NCBI GenBank assembly: GCA_021794835.1
Contig: JAJYQA010000030.1
Span: 1-42,270 of the forward strand
Length of the DNA: 42,270 bases
Source of the DNA: Actinomycetes bacterium
GTDB taxonomy: Bacteria > Actinomycetota > Aquicultoria > Aquicultorales > Aquicultoraceae
Direction: 5' to 3'
The stretch's first letter is position 1. The number at the start of each line of letters is the position of its first letter. Under the pieces are notes generated by a model, which saw only the letters and a list, made by a program, of their open reading frames with translations, had not been told where the DNA came from and searched no databases. A program made the translations under genes and the position numbers. Below are positions 338 to 11,473 of the stretch, one piece after another.

Positions 338-489
338 ATGAAGGCTAGAAAGGAGCAGCAAAATGACAAAATGACCACAAAGAAATCACACCTAGCCACA
401 TTTAAGGCAAAAGTAGCACTGGAGGCCGTCAAGGTAAGCAGACGCTAACAGAGCTCCCACAGAGGTTCCAAGTATATCCCAACCAGTAA
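338..489 (+). pseudogene. remnant of an IS3-family OrfA (transposase N-terminus)
   Basis: From 338 (or the ATG at 371) one frame reads MTTKKSHLATFKAKVALEAVK and then stops. Shifting frame at 432-434 continues as GKQTLTELPQRFQVYPNQ and stops at 487-489. Together these match the helix-turn-helix start of IS3-type OrfA proteins (FKAKVALEA followed by a TLxELxxxFxVxPNQ pattern). One base appears lost after the AAG lysine codon and the frame then ends early, so this is a dead fragment. No OrfB or terminal repeats are visible. A 7-bp inverted pair (GCTGCTC 327-333, GAGCAGC 353-359) lies just upstream. Confidence 0.6.
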
Positions 490-682: not shown

Positions 683-1951
683 TTAAGAGTCCCACACCTT
701 CAACTCATCCATCAGTTTCTGTCCGTATTCCATTAGCTCTTCTTTGCGCTCAAGCAAGTCGTCGCGGGTCTTGATATACTCGGCAAGGGCGGCTGCCGGG
801 GTTTGGGCCTCGGTTAGGTTTGGGTTTCTGGTTCTTACTTCTTCACCTGTAGCCTCAATGTTGATGTAGGCGACAAAGTAAGCACCGGAGAGGGCATCCA
901 TTATCTCATCTTTTCTTATCTGCTCTTTAAGCTTTGCCGGCGCCTTAACGCGCGCCCGAACCACGGCATCATTTAGATCGGCCCTCTCGCAGGCGGCGCA
1001 CACTTCTGCTGTGGGGTCATCTGTCTTGCACTCGACATCTATCGTGACGAAGCGGCGGGCCGGGGCTTTTATAAACTCGTAGGTGGCTGCGCCGCGCGTA
1101 AGGTTTACCAGGCAAAAGCCCTTATCCTCTTTCTCTTCGCCGAAGTCTACACGGTCTATGCTTCCTGAATAGATAAGGTGGGGGTACATGCCCTGGCTTA
1201 AATCTTGAAATTTATGAATGTGACCTAAGGCGACGTAATCAAATTCGGGCCGCTGCAGGATGCTTGGCAGAACTGTTATCTCATGTCCGGCTAGAATACT
1301 TCTGTCTTCACATCCCACGGTTGCGGTTGAGATGCTCAAATGCGCGGTAAGTATCGCCGGGATGCTTTTATCGACTTGCCTGGCCAGATCATCGATAAAA
1401 GTCTCAACCGTTCTTACCATAAGCTCATTTAGCTCGGTCAAGGTTTTGTCTTTGTATTCGATATCCTGCTCTTTCAGGCTTGCGATAAGTCGGCTTCGCG
1501 AAAAATGGGGGAGGGCTGCTACTTGAACCGTCCCCTGTTTAGTGGTGATGGTAAAAAGTTCGGGCTGGCGCGCAACATAGACGCCGTCGATTTCCAGTGC
1601 ATCATAGACCGCCATCGAATGCGCCTGCGCCTGCATGTTGGGCAGGTCATGGTTTCCAACCAGAAGTACCACTTTAATATCTGCCTTAACCAGGCGGCGG
1701 ATTATCCTGGCAAACTCACGCTGCAGTGTTGGGTTGGGCTTCTGATTGCGGAAGGCATCCCCGGCAAAGACGACCAGGGCGACATCGCGCTTAATCGCAG
1801 TATCTACCATAAAGTTAAGGGATTTTAAAAAATCGATTACCCGTTGGTTAAGCCCCGTCTTGGAATCAATGCGGCCATAATTTTCCATTCCCAGGTGAAG
1901 ATCTGCAAAATGAATGGTTCTTATTGCTTTAGTCAAAGATGATCTCGTCAT
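683..1951 (-). CDS. sbcD: Mre11/SbcD-family DNA repair nuclease
   Basis: Metallophosphoesterase of the Mre11/SbcD family, which processes DNA ends with a Rad50/SbcC ATPase. Near the N-terminus are HFADLHLG (D and H of metal motif I) and VVFAGDAF; then GNHDLP, TAHLS and ALGHIHKFQ supply the remaining metal and catalytic residues. The C-terminal third is the less conserved capping region. About 422 residues, normal for the family. The ATG at 1951 has AAGGG nine bases upstream and is preferred over a TTG at 1957. It overlaps the end of herA by about 20 bases and is the last gene of the nurA-HAS-herA operon. No rad50/sbcC is in the window, so the partner is elsewhere or replaced by HerA. Confidence 0.93.
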   Translation of the reverse strand: MTRSSLTKAIRTIHFADLHLGMENYGRIDSKTGLNQRVIDFLKSLNFMVDTAIKRDVALVVFAGDAFRNQKPNPTLQREFARIIRRLVKADIKVVLLVGNHDLPNMQAQAHSMAVYDALEIDGVYVARQPELFTITTKQGTVQVAALPHFSRSRLIASLKEQDIEYKDKTLTELNELMVRTVETFIDDLARQVDKSIPAILTAHLSISTATVGCEDRSILAGHEITVLPSILQRPEFDYVALGHIHKFQDLSQGMYPHLIYSGSIDRVDFGEEKEDKGFCLVNLTRGAATYEFIKAPARRFVTIDVECKTDDPTAEVCAACERADLNDAVVRARVKAPAKLKEQIRKDEIMDALSGAYFVAYINIEATGEEVRTRNPNLTEAQTPAAALAEYIKTRDDLLERKEELMEYGQKLMDELKVWDS

Positions 1952-3566
1952 CGCCAAACACCCTTGCTTTTAGCCCATCCACGGTTTTTCGCCGTTCGAT
2001 CTCATCTAAGATGATGCCCGAGCCAAGCGAGATCTCGCTGCAGAATTTGCCGTAGTCTTTGGCGTCGATTACAACCGGCATCGGAAGGGCAAAACCGGTC
2101 AGCAAAAACTGCCTTGGCTCAAGGTTGTTTATTAAAACTTTTAGTGTTCCCTGGCTGGGAAGGCCGGTAAGTACTGCGTTGATATCCCGCTCATCGCCAA
2201 GGTCTCCAATAATGCGTGTGCCAACCTGCGAGAGCACCTCGTCGTCTATGCCGCTTGGCCGCTGGTCGATTAAAAGCAGGACCATGTTGTACTTTCGCAT
2301 CTCACGGGCAATCGTGCCAAAGGTTGTTTGCCGGGCAACTTGCGGGTCAAGAAACTTGTGCGCCTCCTCGATGGTCACAACCAGGGGTTTTGGACCATCG
2401 ACTCCTTCGGCTCTCGCACTGTCAGTTTTATCCACATAAAGCTTATGCAGTCTGCGCGTTAGTATATTCGCGACCAGGATATAGGCGAGCATCGAGTTGT
2501 AGCGGCCAAATTGAAAGACGATGTGCTTGCCGTCCTGGATAAAGTCCATAATACGGTTAACTGTGTCGTCGGCGACTTCTTTTCGGATAAAGGGAAGCTT
2601 CTTTAATCTATCCAGACAGCGGCGAAGCTTGTTTAGGGCCTGCTCGTTTACCTTTAAATCCTCGACAACTTGGGGAAAATCATCGATATCCATATCTAAA
2701 AACCTGGCAAGCCACCTGTCCTCGCCCCACTTATCCGAGAGGCGGTACATCGTCTCGATCCCGGCCTGAGTCAAGCCCAGCTCGCCTGCGGCAAGCTCAA
2801 GGTCGGCTATCTCAATTGCGCCGTAGGGAATCTGCACGTCGTAGTCGGCCCGGATTTTTCTATAAAGCGGTGAGTTAGAGTCAACTGTAAAAATTGCAAC
2901 TTTGCTCCCCAGAAGTTGCTTAAGACTCGGGTCATCGATACCGCCCTCGTTGGTTGCACTCCAGCCGTATTCATTGTGCATGTCAAAGACAAGGTTTATC
3001 GCCATGTCGCTTTTAATTAAGTAGCCCAAGACCATGCGCGTCAGGACGCTTTTGCCCGAGCCGCTTTTGCCAAATATCGCGTTGCTTCGTTTGCAGAATC
3101 TCTCCAGGTTAAGGCAAACCGGCACATCCATAAAAATTGGCGAGCCTATCTCGGGGTTGGTAACCGCAGGCGAGCCAAAGATAAGCGAGACGTCTTCAGC
3201 CGATGCCTCGCAGACGGGGGAGAAGTGCGGCGGCACGGTGGTCGAGGGCCGTGGCCTATCTAAGTCGGTCGGGTTTTGCGCGGTGATAAGCATTGGCTGC
3301 ACCGAGAGCTTGTAAAATGTGTTTACCCCGGCGTGCACTTGTCTTGCAAAATCATCGCTTGGCGGGTTAAGAAGAATATCCTCGTTTGTTGCCTCAAGCG
3401 AGACATCTTTCAATAAACAGAAGAACTTGTTCTCCTTACCGTCGACGATGACCAGGCGACCGACCGAGATTCCCTCAACGTTTATGTCTTCGTTTAACTT
3501 TGCCTCAAGGCCGGATAGAAGCGAGCCTGATATGAGTTTTCCGATCTCCTGCACTTTACTCGCCAT
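1929..3566 (-). CDS. herA: HerA-type hexameric DNA translocase ATPase
   Basis: FtsK/HerA-superfamily ATPase that forms a hexamer and drives DNA through, or feeds it to, the NurA nuclease in end resection. Residues 1-100 look like the N-terminal HAS barrel. Walker A is GKSGSGKS at 166-173, Walker B is LVVTIEEAH at 395-403, the DQRPSGID segment is at 434-441, and an arginine-bearing GTRIIGDL follows at 449-456. 545 residues, typical of HerA. The ATG at 3566 has CAGGAGA just upstream and overlaps the HAS-barrel gene by 11 bases, so the genes are translationally coupled. In archaea nurA, rad50, mre11 and herA form one operon; here rad50 is missing and a HAS-barrel gene is present. Confidence 0.93.
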   Translation of the reverse strand: MASKVQEIGKLISGSLLSGLEAKLNEDINVEGISVGRLVIVDGKENKFFCLLKDVSLEATNEDILLNPPSDDFARQVHAGVNTFYKLSVQPMLITAQNPTDLDRPRPSTTVPPHFSPVCEASAEDVSLIFGSPAVTNPEIGSPIFMDVPVCLNLERFCKRSNAIFGKSGSGKSVLTRMVLGYLIKSDMAINLVFDMHNEYGWSATNEGGIDDPSLKQLLGSKVAIFTVDSNSPLYRKIRADYDVQIPYGAIEIADLELAAGELGLTQAGIETMYRLSDKWGEDRWLARFLDMDIDDFPQVVEDLKVNEQALNKLRRCLDRLKKLPFIRKEVADDTVNRIMDFIQDGKHIVFQFGRYNSMLAYILVANILTRRLHKLYVDKTDSARAEGVDGPKPLVVTIEEAHKFLDPQVARQTTFGTIAREMRKYNMVLLLIDQRPSGIDDEVLSQVGTRIIGDLGDERDINAVLTGLPSQGTLKVLINNLEPRQFLLTGFALPMPVVIDAKDYGKFCSEISLGSGIILDEIERRKTVDGLKARVFGDDEIIFD

Positions 3567-4137
3567 CGCTTATTCTCCTGATGATACTTCTTGCCTTCTC
3601 ATACTCGTCTTTTAAAAGCTGCGCTATTTCTTGCCCTGCCCGAACGAGAAACGCTCGGTCGCCTTCACGCTCGGCACAAGCCAGGCGGATTGAAGCCGCG
3701 GCTAGCTCCTCGATAGGTAGCCCGGGTAAAGCATTTATGCTTCGGATAAATTCCAAGTCCTCAGTTAAATCAAGCACCTCTTGTTTTTCGCAAGGATAGA
3801 CGAAGCTGTGAATCCTTGGCGGGAAGGGGGGAAGATATGCTCTGGTATATCCGGCATCGTTAAACCCAATAATTGCTGCCTCGAACTCGATCTTTAAAAA
3901 CTCGGCGATCTGTGGCTGTCTCTTAAAAAGTTCCGTGCGCTCAATCCCAAAGGCTACCGCGCGTCGGCTCGGGTCGATACTCGTCTCATGTACATTGTAG
4001 ACAAGACCGTAGATTGCCATACCCTGGCTTTCGGTTTTAACAAAGCTTCCAAAATGCGGAGGGTTATCAAGGCCATCGGCCTGCGCCAAAAACCTGGTTG
4101 TGTAGACTTCGATTATCTCTCCAATTCGCTCGGACAT
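3556..4137 (-). CDS. stand-alone HAS-barrel protein of the HerA-NurA operon
   Basis: 193 residues. The N-terminus (IGEIIEVYTTRF, then PPHFGSFVKTE and IYGLVYNV) has the beta-rich pattern of a HAS barrel, the small barrel at the N-terminus of HerA and F1-ATPase subunits. A PPFPPRIHSFVYPC segment near residues 103-116 and a C-terminal helical region follow. HerA next door also has its own N-terminal barrel, so this is an extra copy rather than a detached half. Its ATG directly follows the nurA stop (TAA-ATG) and its end overlaps herA, which argues for fixed stoichiometry with both. An adaptor or regulatory subunit of the HerA-NurA complex is my inference; I know no assigned function. Confidence 0.7.
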   Translation of the reverse strand: MSERIGEIIEVYTTRFLAQADGLDNPPHFGSFVKTESQGMAIYGLVYNVHETSIDPSRRAVAFGIERTELFKRQPQIAEFLKIEFEAAIIGFNDAGYTRAYLPPFPPRIHSFVYPCEKQEVLDLTEDLEFIRSINALPGLPIEELAAASIRLACAEREGDRAFLVRAGQEIAQLLKDEYEKARSIIRRISDGE

Positions 4138-5343
4138 TTATACAAAGCCTCCTTTTTTGCGAATGGCTTTGCGGGACTCAATCACCGGGGAACCCTGCCT
4201 TATTAATGCCTGTAAAACTAGTTGGTCAAACATGTTTTTATCTGCCTGCTTTACGACAGCCTGCTCGTGTGCCTCGGCCACCGCGATAGGATAGCCAACT
4301 CCTTTGCTCGCTTGGTCAAGGCAGATGCTATGTACCAGCTCTACCGTAGCCGGGTCATGGGCCACCCAGCCCGGCACCTCGATGCGGGCGATCTCTTTGC
4401 CCATATTTATATAGAAAAAATATATTTTTTCCTCGCCGTAATCCTTCAGGATTTTTGATATACTCCCAAAGAGCGAGGACCGCTCACCGAATTGAAGGAG
4501 CTGGCGGAACAGCCCAGCATCCGTGATTCCATCTATCTTAGCACAGGGAAGGGCCCCATCAAAACCCGCCGCTTTGTACGGGCAGTTATCGCAGTCAACT
4601 GGGTCGCTTGGGCAAAGACTCACCTTTAGCGAGTTTACGACATCGCTGCTCCCCGGCGAGCTTATGTATCCGGCTACCGGCACATTAGATATTTTGCCGG
4701 TGGATATAAGTTGCATGAGAGAAATAAATGATTGAAGCTTTAGGTCATCGGTGCCAAGCCCCTCCAGTATGCCCGGCTCTGTCTCAAGGCTCCAGAGGAT
4801 AAGCGTGCCGTCGATTAGCGCGACCGCCGGCTTTGCTTCACATCCCTCAATCATATTAGTAAGCGCATCGGACTCCATTTTCTGCCGAAGCGCCGCAAGC
4901 ACCCCGCCGGATACCTCGCGTTCCTTGCCGCCGAAACGACGCATGATATCTTTTTCCTCAAAAAAAAGGCTCGGCTCACTTTCAAGGCGGTACCCCAGGT
5001 AATCCCCATAGCTTATCTCAACTTTGCCGATGTTTATCAAAAAAGCGTGGTATGGGCTGTGGCGGTCGGGGTTTATCTGCGAACCATCCGTTGAAAGAAT
5101 TGTATAGGAGCCGGGGCACGCAGTTGGGAGATGCGACGCAAACGGGTGCTCTCCGGTCGGCATGGCAACCAGCCAGGATGTTGATGAGCGGCTAACTTTG
5201 TTTACAAACGCCTCAACGTTATCCGAGACCAGGTTAACCTGCTCGCCGGCAATGCTAAAAGCCTCCGCTATGCCCCGTATCCGGTCTCTTTGATGTTTGC
5301 TAAGTGCTTTTATTTGCAACTGCAATTTGTTTAAATCCAGCAA
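4138..5343 (-). CDS. nurA: NurA-domain 5'-3' nuclease
   Basis: NurA nuclease, partner of HerA in resecting DNA ends. The metal-binding signature is visible: STDGSQ at 84-89 (Asp86), VALIDGTL at 174-181 (Asp178), and a C-terminal YPIAVAEAHE at 351-360 (His359). 401 residues, within the family range. Four cysteines (C244, C251, C254, C267) sit between the conserved blocks, in a region that could hold zinc or an iron-sulfur cluster. The start is TTG at 5343 with AGAGGTGAT upstream. First gene of the repair operon; a LexA box lies 29 bases upstream of its start. Confidence 0.9.
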   Translation of the reverse strand: MLDLNKLQLQIKALSKHQRDRIRGIAEAFSIAGEQVNLVSDNVEAFVNKVSRSSTSWLVAMPTGEHPFASHLPTACPGSYTILSTDGSQINPDRHSPYHAFLINIGKVEISYGDYLGYRLESEPSLFFEEKDIMRRFGGKEREVSGGVLAALRQKMESDALTNMIEGCEAKPAVALIDGTLILWSLETEPGILEGLGTDDLKLQSFISLMQLISTGKISNVPVAGYISSPGSSDVVNSLKVSLCPSDPVDCDNCPYKAAGFDGALPCAKIDGITDAGLFRQLLQFGERSSLFGSISKILKDYGEEKIYFFYINMGKEIARIEVPGWVAHDPATVELVHSICLDQASKGVGYPIAVAEAHEQAVVKQADKNMFDQLVLQALIRQGSPVIESRKAIRKKGGFV

Positions 5344-5371
5344 GCGGTATCACCTCTAATTATTACAAACC

Positions 5372-5385
5372 CGAACAACCGTTCG
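5372..5385 (-). promoter_or_regulatory. LexA (SOS) box upstream of nurA-HAS-herA-mre11
   Basis: CGAACAACCGTTCG is a perfect CGAAC-N4-GTTCG palindrome, the LexA operator of Gram-positive and actinobacterial type. On the minus strand it falls between a possible -35 (TTGTAT) and -10 (TGTAAT, 18-base spacing), where LexA binding would block RNA polymerase. It is 29 bases from the nurA start codon. Confidence 0.8.
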
Positions 5386-5586
5386 ATACAATTGTAACAG
5401 AAGGATTTGTGGATGGGAAGGGCAAAAGGAAAGGATTAGATGGCAGAAGTCGGGAGTCATAATATAATCAAGCTTTTAATATGATACGCCTTGTAGATAA
5501 ATTGGAGTTGTAATAAACAGACTTTTAATTATTCCTAATAGGCTATAAAATAAAGAGCACACACTACTAATTCCCTTAGGAGGATT

Positions 5587-6602
5587 ATGCAGAATTCCAC
5601 TTTGCCAGTTGCGATAAACGAATCACACAAACTTTATCGCTCAAAGCTACTTATTAACACAGCTAAAACTTGTGAATGCCCAGAAAATCATTTAAACTGT
5701 TTGACTGCAAAAGAATGGCTAAAAAGTCAACTTGGTGTTTGGCAGTTTGTCTATGAAGGTCGTGACATCCGAAAGAAAGACTTGCATCCTGCTACCTTTC
5801 CAATTTCCTTAGCAAAGAAAGTTATTCAGTTGTTTAGCCATGAAGGAGAACTTGTACTTGATCCATTTGTAGGTAGTGGTACCACTTTGTTAGCTGCTCA
5901 AGATTTAAATAGAAACGCTGTCGGATTTGACTTGTCTGAAAAATATATTGAACTTTGCAAAGATCGGCTTGGCCTCGAAACCCTTTTTAACACTTCTCAA
6001 CAAATAGCTATTCAAGATGATGCCCTTCATATACCGGATTACCTGGAGCCCGAAAGTGTTAAGCTTATCTGGACCTCGCCACCTTACGCTAATCTATTAA
6101 ATCGGAAACGCAAGAACAAGTCTCGTCGAGTCCGTAATAACGAGCAGTATATGAAGGTTGAGCAATACTATACTCGCAAGACCCCCGTGACCTTGGCACC
6201 ATGCCACTAGAAGAGTATACGCAAGCCATGGGCGATATTTTTGAGGCTCTATTACCACTACTTAAAGTGAAAGGCCATTGTGTTATCAATGTCCCTGATA
6301 TGTGGTGGGAGAACGAAAGAATAACCATTCACGTGGCATTGATTGAAGAACTCAGGCGTCGAGGCTACGAGTTGCGAAATACCATAATATGGGATAGAAC
6401 AAATATTGTAAATCAGATTGGAATTTTTGGCTGGCCTAGCAATTACATCACAATGGGCACAACTTTCGAATATCTGCTTGATTTCTGGCGACCTCCGCTT
6501 ACAAAGGAGACCGACAATAATGGATCAGCCTCAACCCGACATGGCTCGTCTACCACACCCGCGATTTTCGCCACCCCGAAATTTGGGAAAACTATAGGCT
6601 AA
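5587..6602 (+). pseudogene. frameshifted DNA methyltransferase (N4-C/N6-A type)
   Basis: SAM-dependent DNA amino-methyltransferase. Frame one (5587-6210) carries FPISLAKKVI, the SAM-binding motif DPFVGSGTT (residues 92-100) and the catalytic TSPPYANL (163-170). The gene continues in another frame as QDPRDLGTMPLEEYTQAMGD through FEYLLDFWRPP to 6602. The break is explained exactly by a tandem 5-bp duplication, ATACT at 6165-6169 and again at 6170-6174; removing one copy restores EQYSQDPRDLG and one continuous frame. The C-terminal tail after RPPL is low-complexity and another frame there looks more protein-like, so a second lesion near 6500-6530 is possible. The start has a good AGGAGG. No restriction enzyme is adjacent; an orphan methyltransferase, probably inactive. 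Confidence 0.8.
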
Positions 6603-10781: not shown

Positions 10782-10795
10782 CGAACAAACGTTCG
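10782..10795 (+). promoter_or_regulatory. LexA (SOS) box, second copy
   Basis: CGAACAAACGTTCG is a perfect CGAAC-N4-GTTCG palindrome. It overlaps the expected transcription start and lies 22 bases before the start codon at 10817, so LexA binding would block initiation. Confidence 0.82.
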
Positions 10796-10816: not shown

Positions 10817-11473
10817 ATGTCAGAACACAAACTTCCTGCAAAATTCATTAAAAAGATCCAGGGTAAAGACTTTGTTCTTTTTGAGGGTCTCCTGGAGATG
10901 GCCCATGCGGATGGTCTAAAGAGGGTGGAGACTCAACTCCTGCAGGCACCGCATAAAGATAACGGCATGCTCGCAATTGTAAGGGCCGTTATTGAGACGG
11001 ATAAGGGGATATTCTCAGCTCTGGGCGATGCCTCGCCTGAGTCGGCAGAGCGTCCCATGCAGCCACATCTTGTTCGTCTGGCCGATACCCGGGCTATAGC
11101 CCGAGCTATTAGAATAGCGGTAAATGTTGGCATAACCGCGGTCGAGGAGATAAACGAGAGTGAGCCGGTTATGGGAGGAAGTAGTCATAGCTCAAACAGT
11201 GGTAAGAAGTCCCGCAAAGCTAAAGAGGACGTTGAGACAGAGGTAAAATCGGCGTGGCTCGAGAAGCCCGAGTTGGTAGTCCTATCCTTCGGCAAGCATG
11301 CGGACAAAACTCTTGGAGATATCTTTGCCGAGGATCCAACCTATATCGAATGGCTGGCAAAAGAGGCCTATGACTACGTCTTAAGGACCGCGGCAAAGAA
11401 GCTTTTGGAGGCGCATACGCCCGAAGCCGACGACTTCGACCCAACCGGCACCGCCGAGTTATTTTTTGAATAA
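10817..11473 (+). CDS. candidate annealing-type protein with ExoX-like C-terminal domain
   Basis: 218 residues from the ATG at 10817, preceded by GGAAGGTGG; an upstream in-frame ATG at 10742 would place the LexA box inside the gene and is rejected. Residues 8-112 (GKDFVLFEGLLEMAH, then AIVRAVIETDKGIFSALGDAS, PHLVRLADTRAIARAIRIAVNVG) follow the strand-strand-helix layout with an RA-R-A-NVG helix that recalls Rad52/Erf-type annealing proteins. A Ser/Lys-rich linker (120-140) leads to VVLSFGKHADKTLGDIFAEDP-YIEWLAKE (154-183), the ExoX-like C-terminal/DUF3820 pattern. The annealase reading is inference from pattern, not an established assignment. The SOS box supports a repair role. Confidence 0.65.
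   Translation: MSEHKLPAKFIKKIQGKDFVLFEGLLEMAHADGLKRVETQLLQAPHKDNGMLAIVRAVIETDKGIFSALGDASPESAERPMQPHLVRLADTRAIARAIRIAVNVGITAVEEINESEPVMGGSSHSSNSGKKSRKAKEDVETEVKSAWLEKPELVVLSFGKHADKTLGDIFAEDPTYIEWLAKEAYDYVLRTAAKKLLEAHTPEADDFDPTGTAELFFE

Follow-up and report, generated by a model that had tools for sequence, protein, structure and literature searches.

The locus raises the question of whether a bacterium keeps a HerA-NurA-Mre11 end-resection machine of the archaeal type under the control of LexA, and whether that machine works without Rad50. It lies in the window, by which we mean the whole 42,270-nucleotide stretch that was analysed, and belongs to a genome of 2.04 Mb that is 98% complete and comes from a little-known actinobacterial lineage with kinship to Candidatus Aquicultor. 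We favor, at a probability of roughly 0.8, the reading that the window carries a LexA-repressed, DNA-damage-inducible operon for double-strand-break resection by HerA-NurA-Mre11(-Rad50).

Operon layout and protein motifs

On the minus strand, nurA, a gene for a stand-alone HAS-barrel protein, herA, and mre11 follow one another without intergenic gaps (Table 1). The nurA and HAS genes meet at a 0-bp junction, the HAS gene and herA overlap by 11 bp, and herA and mre11 overlap by 29 bp (counted from the listed TTG). The first-pass annotation had described four tightly coupled genes behind a perfect CGAAC-N4-GTTCG box, and both observations are borne out: these junctions leave no space between the genes, and the site, CGAACAACCGTTCG at 5372-5385, has 0 mismatches and lies 29 bp upstream of nurA. 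The operon extends to position 683; the interval 3556-5385 marked earlier comprises the box, nurA, and the HAS gene only. Divergent from nurA is a DNA methyltransferase gene (5587-6602), which a frameshift splits into two overlapping frames.

Table 1. Position, strand, and supporting evidence of features in the window.
Feature	Position	Strand	Evidence
LexA (SOS) box CGAACGGTTGTTCG (minus-strand reading)	5372..5385	-	exact match
putative extended -10 promoter element TGTTACAAT	5391..5399	-	box-anchored alignment of 12 promoters
nurA, 401 aa, TTG start at 5343	4138..5343	-	Pfam NurA PF09376 E 1.2e-26; 17-sequence alignment
stand-alone HAS-barrel protein, 193 aa; N-terminal barrel and C-terminal helices	3556..4137	-	Pfam HAS-barrel E 2.9e-4; predicted fold
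herA, 545 aa, hexameric DNA translocase family	1929..3566	-	DUF87 PF01935 E 1.3e-28
mre11/sbcD-like nuclease, 424 aa	683..1957	-	Metallophos PF00149 E 3.5e-12; TIGR00619
frame-broken stretch downstream of mre11, where rad50 stands in relatives	340..480	+	six-frame translation
second perfect LexA box, upstream of gene at 10817	10782..10795	+	exact match
second SOS-box gene, 218 aa, ExoX-like C-terminal domain (putative function)	10817..11473	+	PF20600 E 9e-10

The catalytic motifs of NurA, Mre11, and HerA do not vary in alignments that cover up to 17 genomes, and the enzyme activities considered below are those predicted from these sequences. NurA contains the invariant motifs D86-G-S-Q and D178-G-T, and residues D86, E157, and D178, which are invariant across the 17-sequence alignment, are the candidate catalytic residues. 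The NurA proteins of this group also share four invariant cysteines (C244, C251, C254, and C267) that likely form a metal site; sequence searches detect no solved structure that matches the protein. HerA, whose best match in the PDB is the Sulfolobus solfataricus enzyme (4d2i), retains an invariant Walker A motif (G166..GKS173) and the Walker B residues E400/E401. Its N-terminal HAS barrel is matched by profile in 14 of 15 orthologues, the match in the window's copy being weak (E 0.006). Mre11 carries the full phosphoesterase motif set (D19xH21, G66D67, G101NHD, H206, and G245HIH) and scores 136 bits against the NCBIfam sbcd model TIGR00619 (cut-off 78).

Conservation of the LexA-type box

Each of the order's 12 genomes, drawn from seven genera and two families, retains the box upstream of nurA, as it should if the box serves the orthologous nurA genes. 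When the 12 nurA promoters are aligned on the box, the sequence TGnTAnAAT is found just upstream of it in most or all rows. This -10 element is 5 bp upstream of the box in the window, so that the box would sit over the expected start of transcription and bound LexA would cover it. Among the seven genera (one genome each), conservation is 0.96 in the box arms vs 0.61 in other columns. Between the box and the start codon the sequence has diverged and the distance varies: in the order genomes, the box begins 26-94 bp before the start codon. The genes upstream of nurA differ from genome to genome, which assigns the box to nurA and rules out the divergent methyltransferase gene as its true target. 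Part of this order-wide conservation reflects shared ancestry.

The genome also encodes the expected repressor. Its single LexA match (contig C43, E 8.6e-31) retains an Ala-Gly site and the GNSM serine, motifs that were read by eye, and boxes of the same motif precede lexA itself (CGAACCTATGTTTG) and recA (CAAACGTACGTTCG). Across the order, lexA is boxed in 12 of 12 genomes and recA in 10 of the 11 whose recA upstream DNA could be read; the recA gene of G006 has no box within 250 bp. A stop flagged in the lexA of G001 falls upstream of the coding part. Two tandem boxes precede lexA in G011 (L109), and a second, weaker box is seen in several other genomes. The SOS control proposed in the first-pass annotation is strongly supported by the conservation of the nurA box and by the lexA and recA boxes; binding by LexA and induction by damage are predicted from these sites. 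The operon thus probably stands behind a conserved LexA (SOS) switch, and its products would be made upon DNA damage.

Two other explanations of the boxed operon were weighed. The site could be a chance palindrome, or the target of another regulator, in front of a HerA-NurA resection module that is expressed constitutively. Genome-wide, the degenerate motif CGAACN4GTTYG shows no excess over its reversed control (9/8 vs 10/7), so many of its matches are due to chance; counting was therefore discarded as evidence, and the case for the box is positional rather than numerical. A box with at most one mismatch is expected by chance in 0.1-1% of 120-bp upstream regions, yet 12 of 12 genomes have one at nurA, each time closely following a -10 element of one type, and the recA and lexA boxes share its motif; an accidental or unrelated site is therefore improbable. 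It is still harder to sustain the view that the operon is a damage-induced anti-phage or anti-plasmid defence of the HerA family, comparable to SIR2-HerA or DUF4297-HerA, that destroys invading DNA. HerA does match PADLOC HerA profiles (best E 4.5e-26), and a broken DNA methyltransferase gene adjoins the operon, but the HerA score is far below the antiphage NCBIfam cut-offs and the methyltransferase gene is not beside nurA in the two same-genus relatives. Moreover, the partners are NurA, Mre11, and Rad50 rather than a defence effector, the operon is retained across an order, and the neighbors of rad50 are conserved, so that we consider a defence function very improbable.

Outside the order, five more distant relatives encode nurA-HAS-herA, followed directly by mre11 and then rad50 in two of them (G058 and G072). 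None of the five has a box at nurA, and a perfect recA box is present in all four whose recA promoter is readable, which indicates that capture by the SOS system is specific to a lineage. A survey of 80 named public-genome loci agrees: the eight of the Aquicultor lineage have the box at nurA, and the Chloroflexota, Entotheonella, and other public loci with readable DNA upstream of nurA have no LexA-type box. Either the SOS regulon gained the operon in the Aquicultor lineage or the box was lost elsewhere. Operons with and without the box, set beside the same LexA motif at recA, offer a clean evolutionary comparison. The Chloroflexota and Entotheonella loci resemble the present one in that the HAS gene is followed by herA within 1 kb (63 of 78 loci, the Aquicultor lineage included), with nurA upstream in 54 of the 78. 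They differ in the unboxed nurA, where upstream DNA is readable, and in the rarity of mre11 (12 loci of the 78).

Rad50 and the stand-alone HAS-barrel protein

The first-pass annotation described the operon as lacking Rad50 and proposed that the HAS-barrel protein takes its place. Absence holds for the window only. A search with AAA_23, together with orthologue comparison, led us to reject absence from the genome: a full-length Rad50 of 857 aa is encoded on contig C34 (L062:2859-5429), with matches to three Pfam families over cut-off, namely AAA_23, the zinc hook, and the SbcC Walker B motif; it is 63% identical to its operonic counterpart in G003. Nine relatives in the order belong to other genera, and in eight of them (G003-G008, G010, and G011) a rad50 frame directly follows mre11 as the fifth gene of the operon; the frame in G008 is read as part of a longer one, and in G009 the stretch of contig analysed ends inside mre11. 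Both same-genus genomes also have rad50, again detached. The detached gene still keeps company with the Hsp20-like and aminotransferase-like genes that come after rad50 in relatives with an operonic copy: in G001 it is their immediate neighbor, and in G002 a few genes intervene. We take the frame-broken stretch downstream of mre11 to resemble an IS3-type transposase OrfA, and fragments that are presumably of mobile-element origin are found both in the window, past the end of mre11, and on C34, ahead of rad50. Within 250 bp of the detached rad50 there is no box. In the window's genus, rad50 thus appears to be uncoupled from the SOS promoter, and the full machine would not be induced as one unit.

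The substitution of Rad50 by the HAS-barrel protein is refuted, because HerA has a HAS barrel of its own and the stand-alone protein coexists with Rad50 in relatives. The Pfam HAS-barrel match of the window's copy is below the curated cut-off, the best family member reaching 4e-8. A model predicted from 48 sequences (pLDDT 92.9) returned HerA family chains as the top PDB matches in Foldseek (probability 1.00, best E 1.8e-7), the alignment being partial (TMq 0.44). The model therefore suggests a barrel of the HerA/ATP-synthase type; the idea that the protein simply duplicates the barrel of HerA was rejected, as the similarity is one of fold only and no sequence-profile similarity is seen. HAS barrels of HerA bind NurA in Deinococcus radiodurans (PMC9960219), and by analogy the likeliest role for the extra protein is that of an adaptor or a competitor at the HerA/NurA interface. 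Since HerA already has such a NurA-binding barrel, a free one could compete with it, and the protein might block or gate HerA-NurA instead of aiding assembly, with SOS setting the dosage of resection and not simply switching it on or off. This variant of the resection reading is rather unlikely, given that the HAS gene is coupled to the enzyme genes and equally conserved, and that the proposed action is conjectural. Whichever role it has, the stand-alone HAS-barrel protein would be a widespread HerA partner without an assigned role.

A possible resection pathway and a second boxed gene

In the resection pathway that we propose, LexA bound to the box over the nurA transcription start would keep the operon repressed. 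Upon formation of RecA filaments, LexA would cleave itself and nurA-HAS-herA-mre11 would be transcribed. Mre11 and the separately encoded Rad50 would then open blocked or hairpin ends, and the HerA hexamer would pump duplex DNA into NurA, which would degrade the 5′ strand, so that RecA is left with a 3′ tail. For the extra HAS protein, the most likely part in this scheme is that of an adaptor docked where HerA and NurA meet. Single-stranded DNA made by damage would, if this is correct, induce a machine that makes more of it.

A survey for helicase-nucleases of the AddAB/RecBCD/AdnAB type revealed no AddA/AddB/RecB-type protein (a long UvrD helicase with a PDDEXK nuclease) in the window's genome, its two same-genus relatives, G005, or G011. 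The longest PDDEXK_1 frame in the window's genome is 423 aa and the UvrD frames are 721 and 737 aa; in G004 and G006-G009, long frames of the AddAB/RecB type lie side by side. With no AddAB/RecBCD detected, the operon and Rad50 may constitute the main helicase-nuclease for break resection in this genome. More tentatively, at somewhat less than even odds in our judgment, HerA-NurA-Mre11 with its extra HAS subunit is the main SOS-inducible resection enzyme, replacing AddAB/RecBCD in genera without it.

The archaeal operon, ordered nurA-rad50-mre11-herA (Constantinesco, 2004, as cited in PMC9960219; PMC2288612), likewise links NurA, HerA, and Mre11 and, as in relatives of the window's genome, Rad50. 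The present order is instead nurA-HAS-herA-mre11-(rad50), with an additional HAS protein, a LexA box, and, in this genus, a detached rad50. The bacterial HerA-NurA pair of D. radiodurans and Thermus, likewise found in genomes without RecBCD/AddAB, differs, as far as the available text of PMC9960219 goes, in having neither Mre11 nor a stand-alone HAS protein in the unit. LexA control of Mre11/Rad50 homologues is known from Staphylococcus aureus, in which sbcD-sbcC has the near-identical box CGAACAAATGTTCT; that organism is stated to lack NurA-HerA (PMC11442139), and its unit has no HAS protein. A literature search, with most subscription journals outside its coverage, found no report of LexA control of HerA-NurA, which is not proof of novelty, and the extra HAS-barrel subunit is not described in the literature found. 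What would be new is the LexA regulation; the HerA-NurA-Mre11 machine itself was already known. Such regulation would wire an archaeal-type end-resection machine into the bacterial SOS circuit and provide a bacterial setting in which the contested function of HerA-NurA could be tested. Strains of D. radiodurans and T. thermophilus that lost nurA or herA are reported to show modest effects or even improved resistance (PMC9960219), and hence induction may not mean benefit.

The window contains a second perfect box (Table 1), on which the first-pass annotation of the operon is silent and which has identical spacing to the ATG in all seven genomes with an orthologue of the gene downstream. The 218-aa product is possibly a new SOS repair protein, its N-terminal domain possibly a strand-annealing protein. 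A single-sequence fold prediction (pLDDT 50) was discarded, and no relatives of the gene were found in viral contigs. A paralogue on contig C32 has no box. Further perfect boxes occur at L225:1860 and L226:295 (contigs C31 and C35), in the regions of an HD-hydrolase-like gene and of restriction-modification-like genes.
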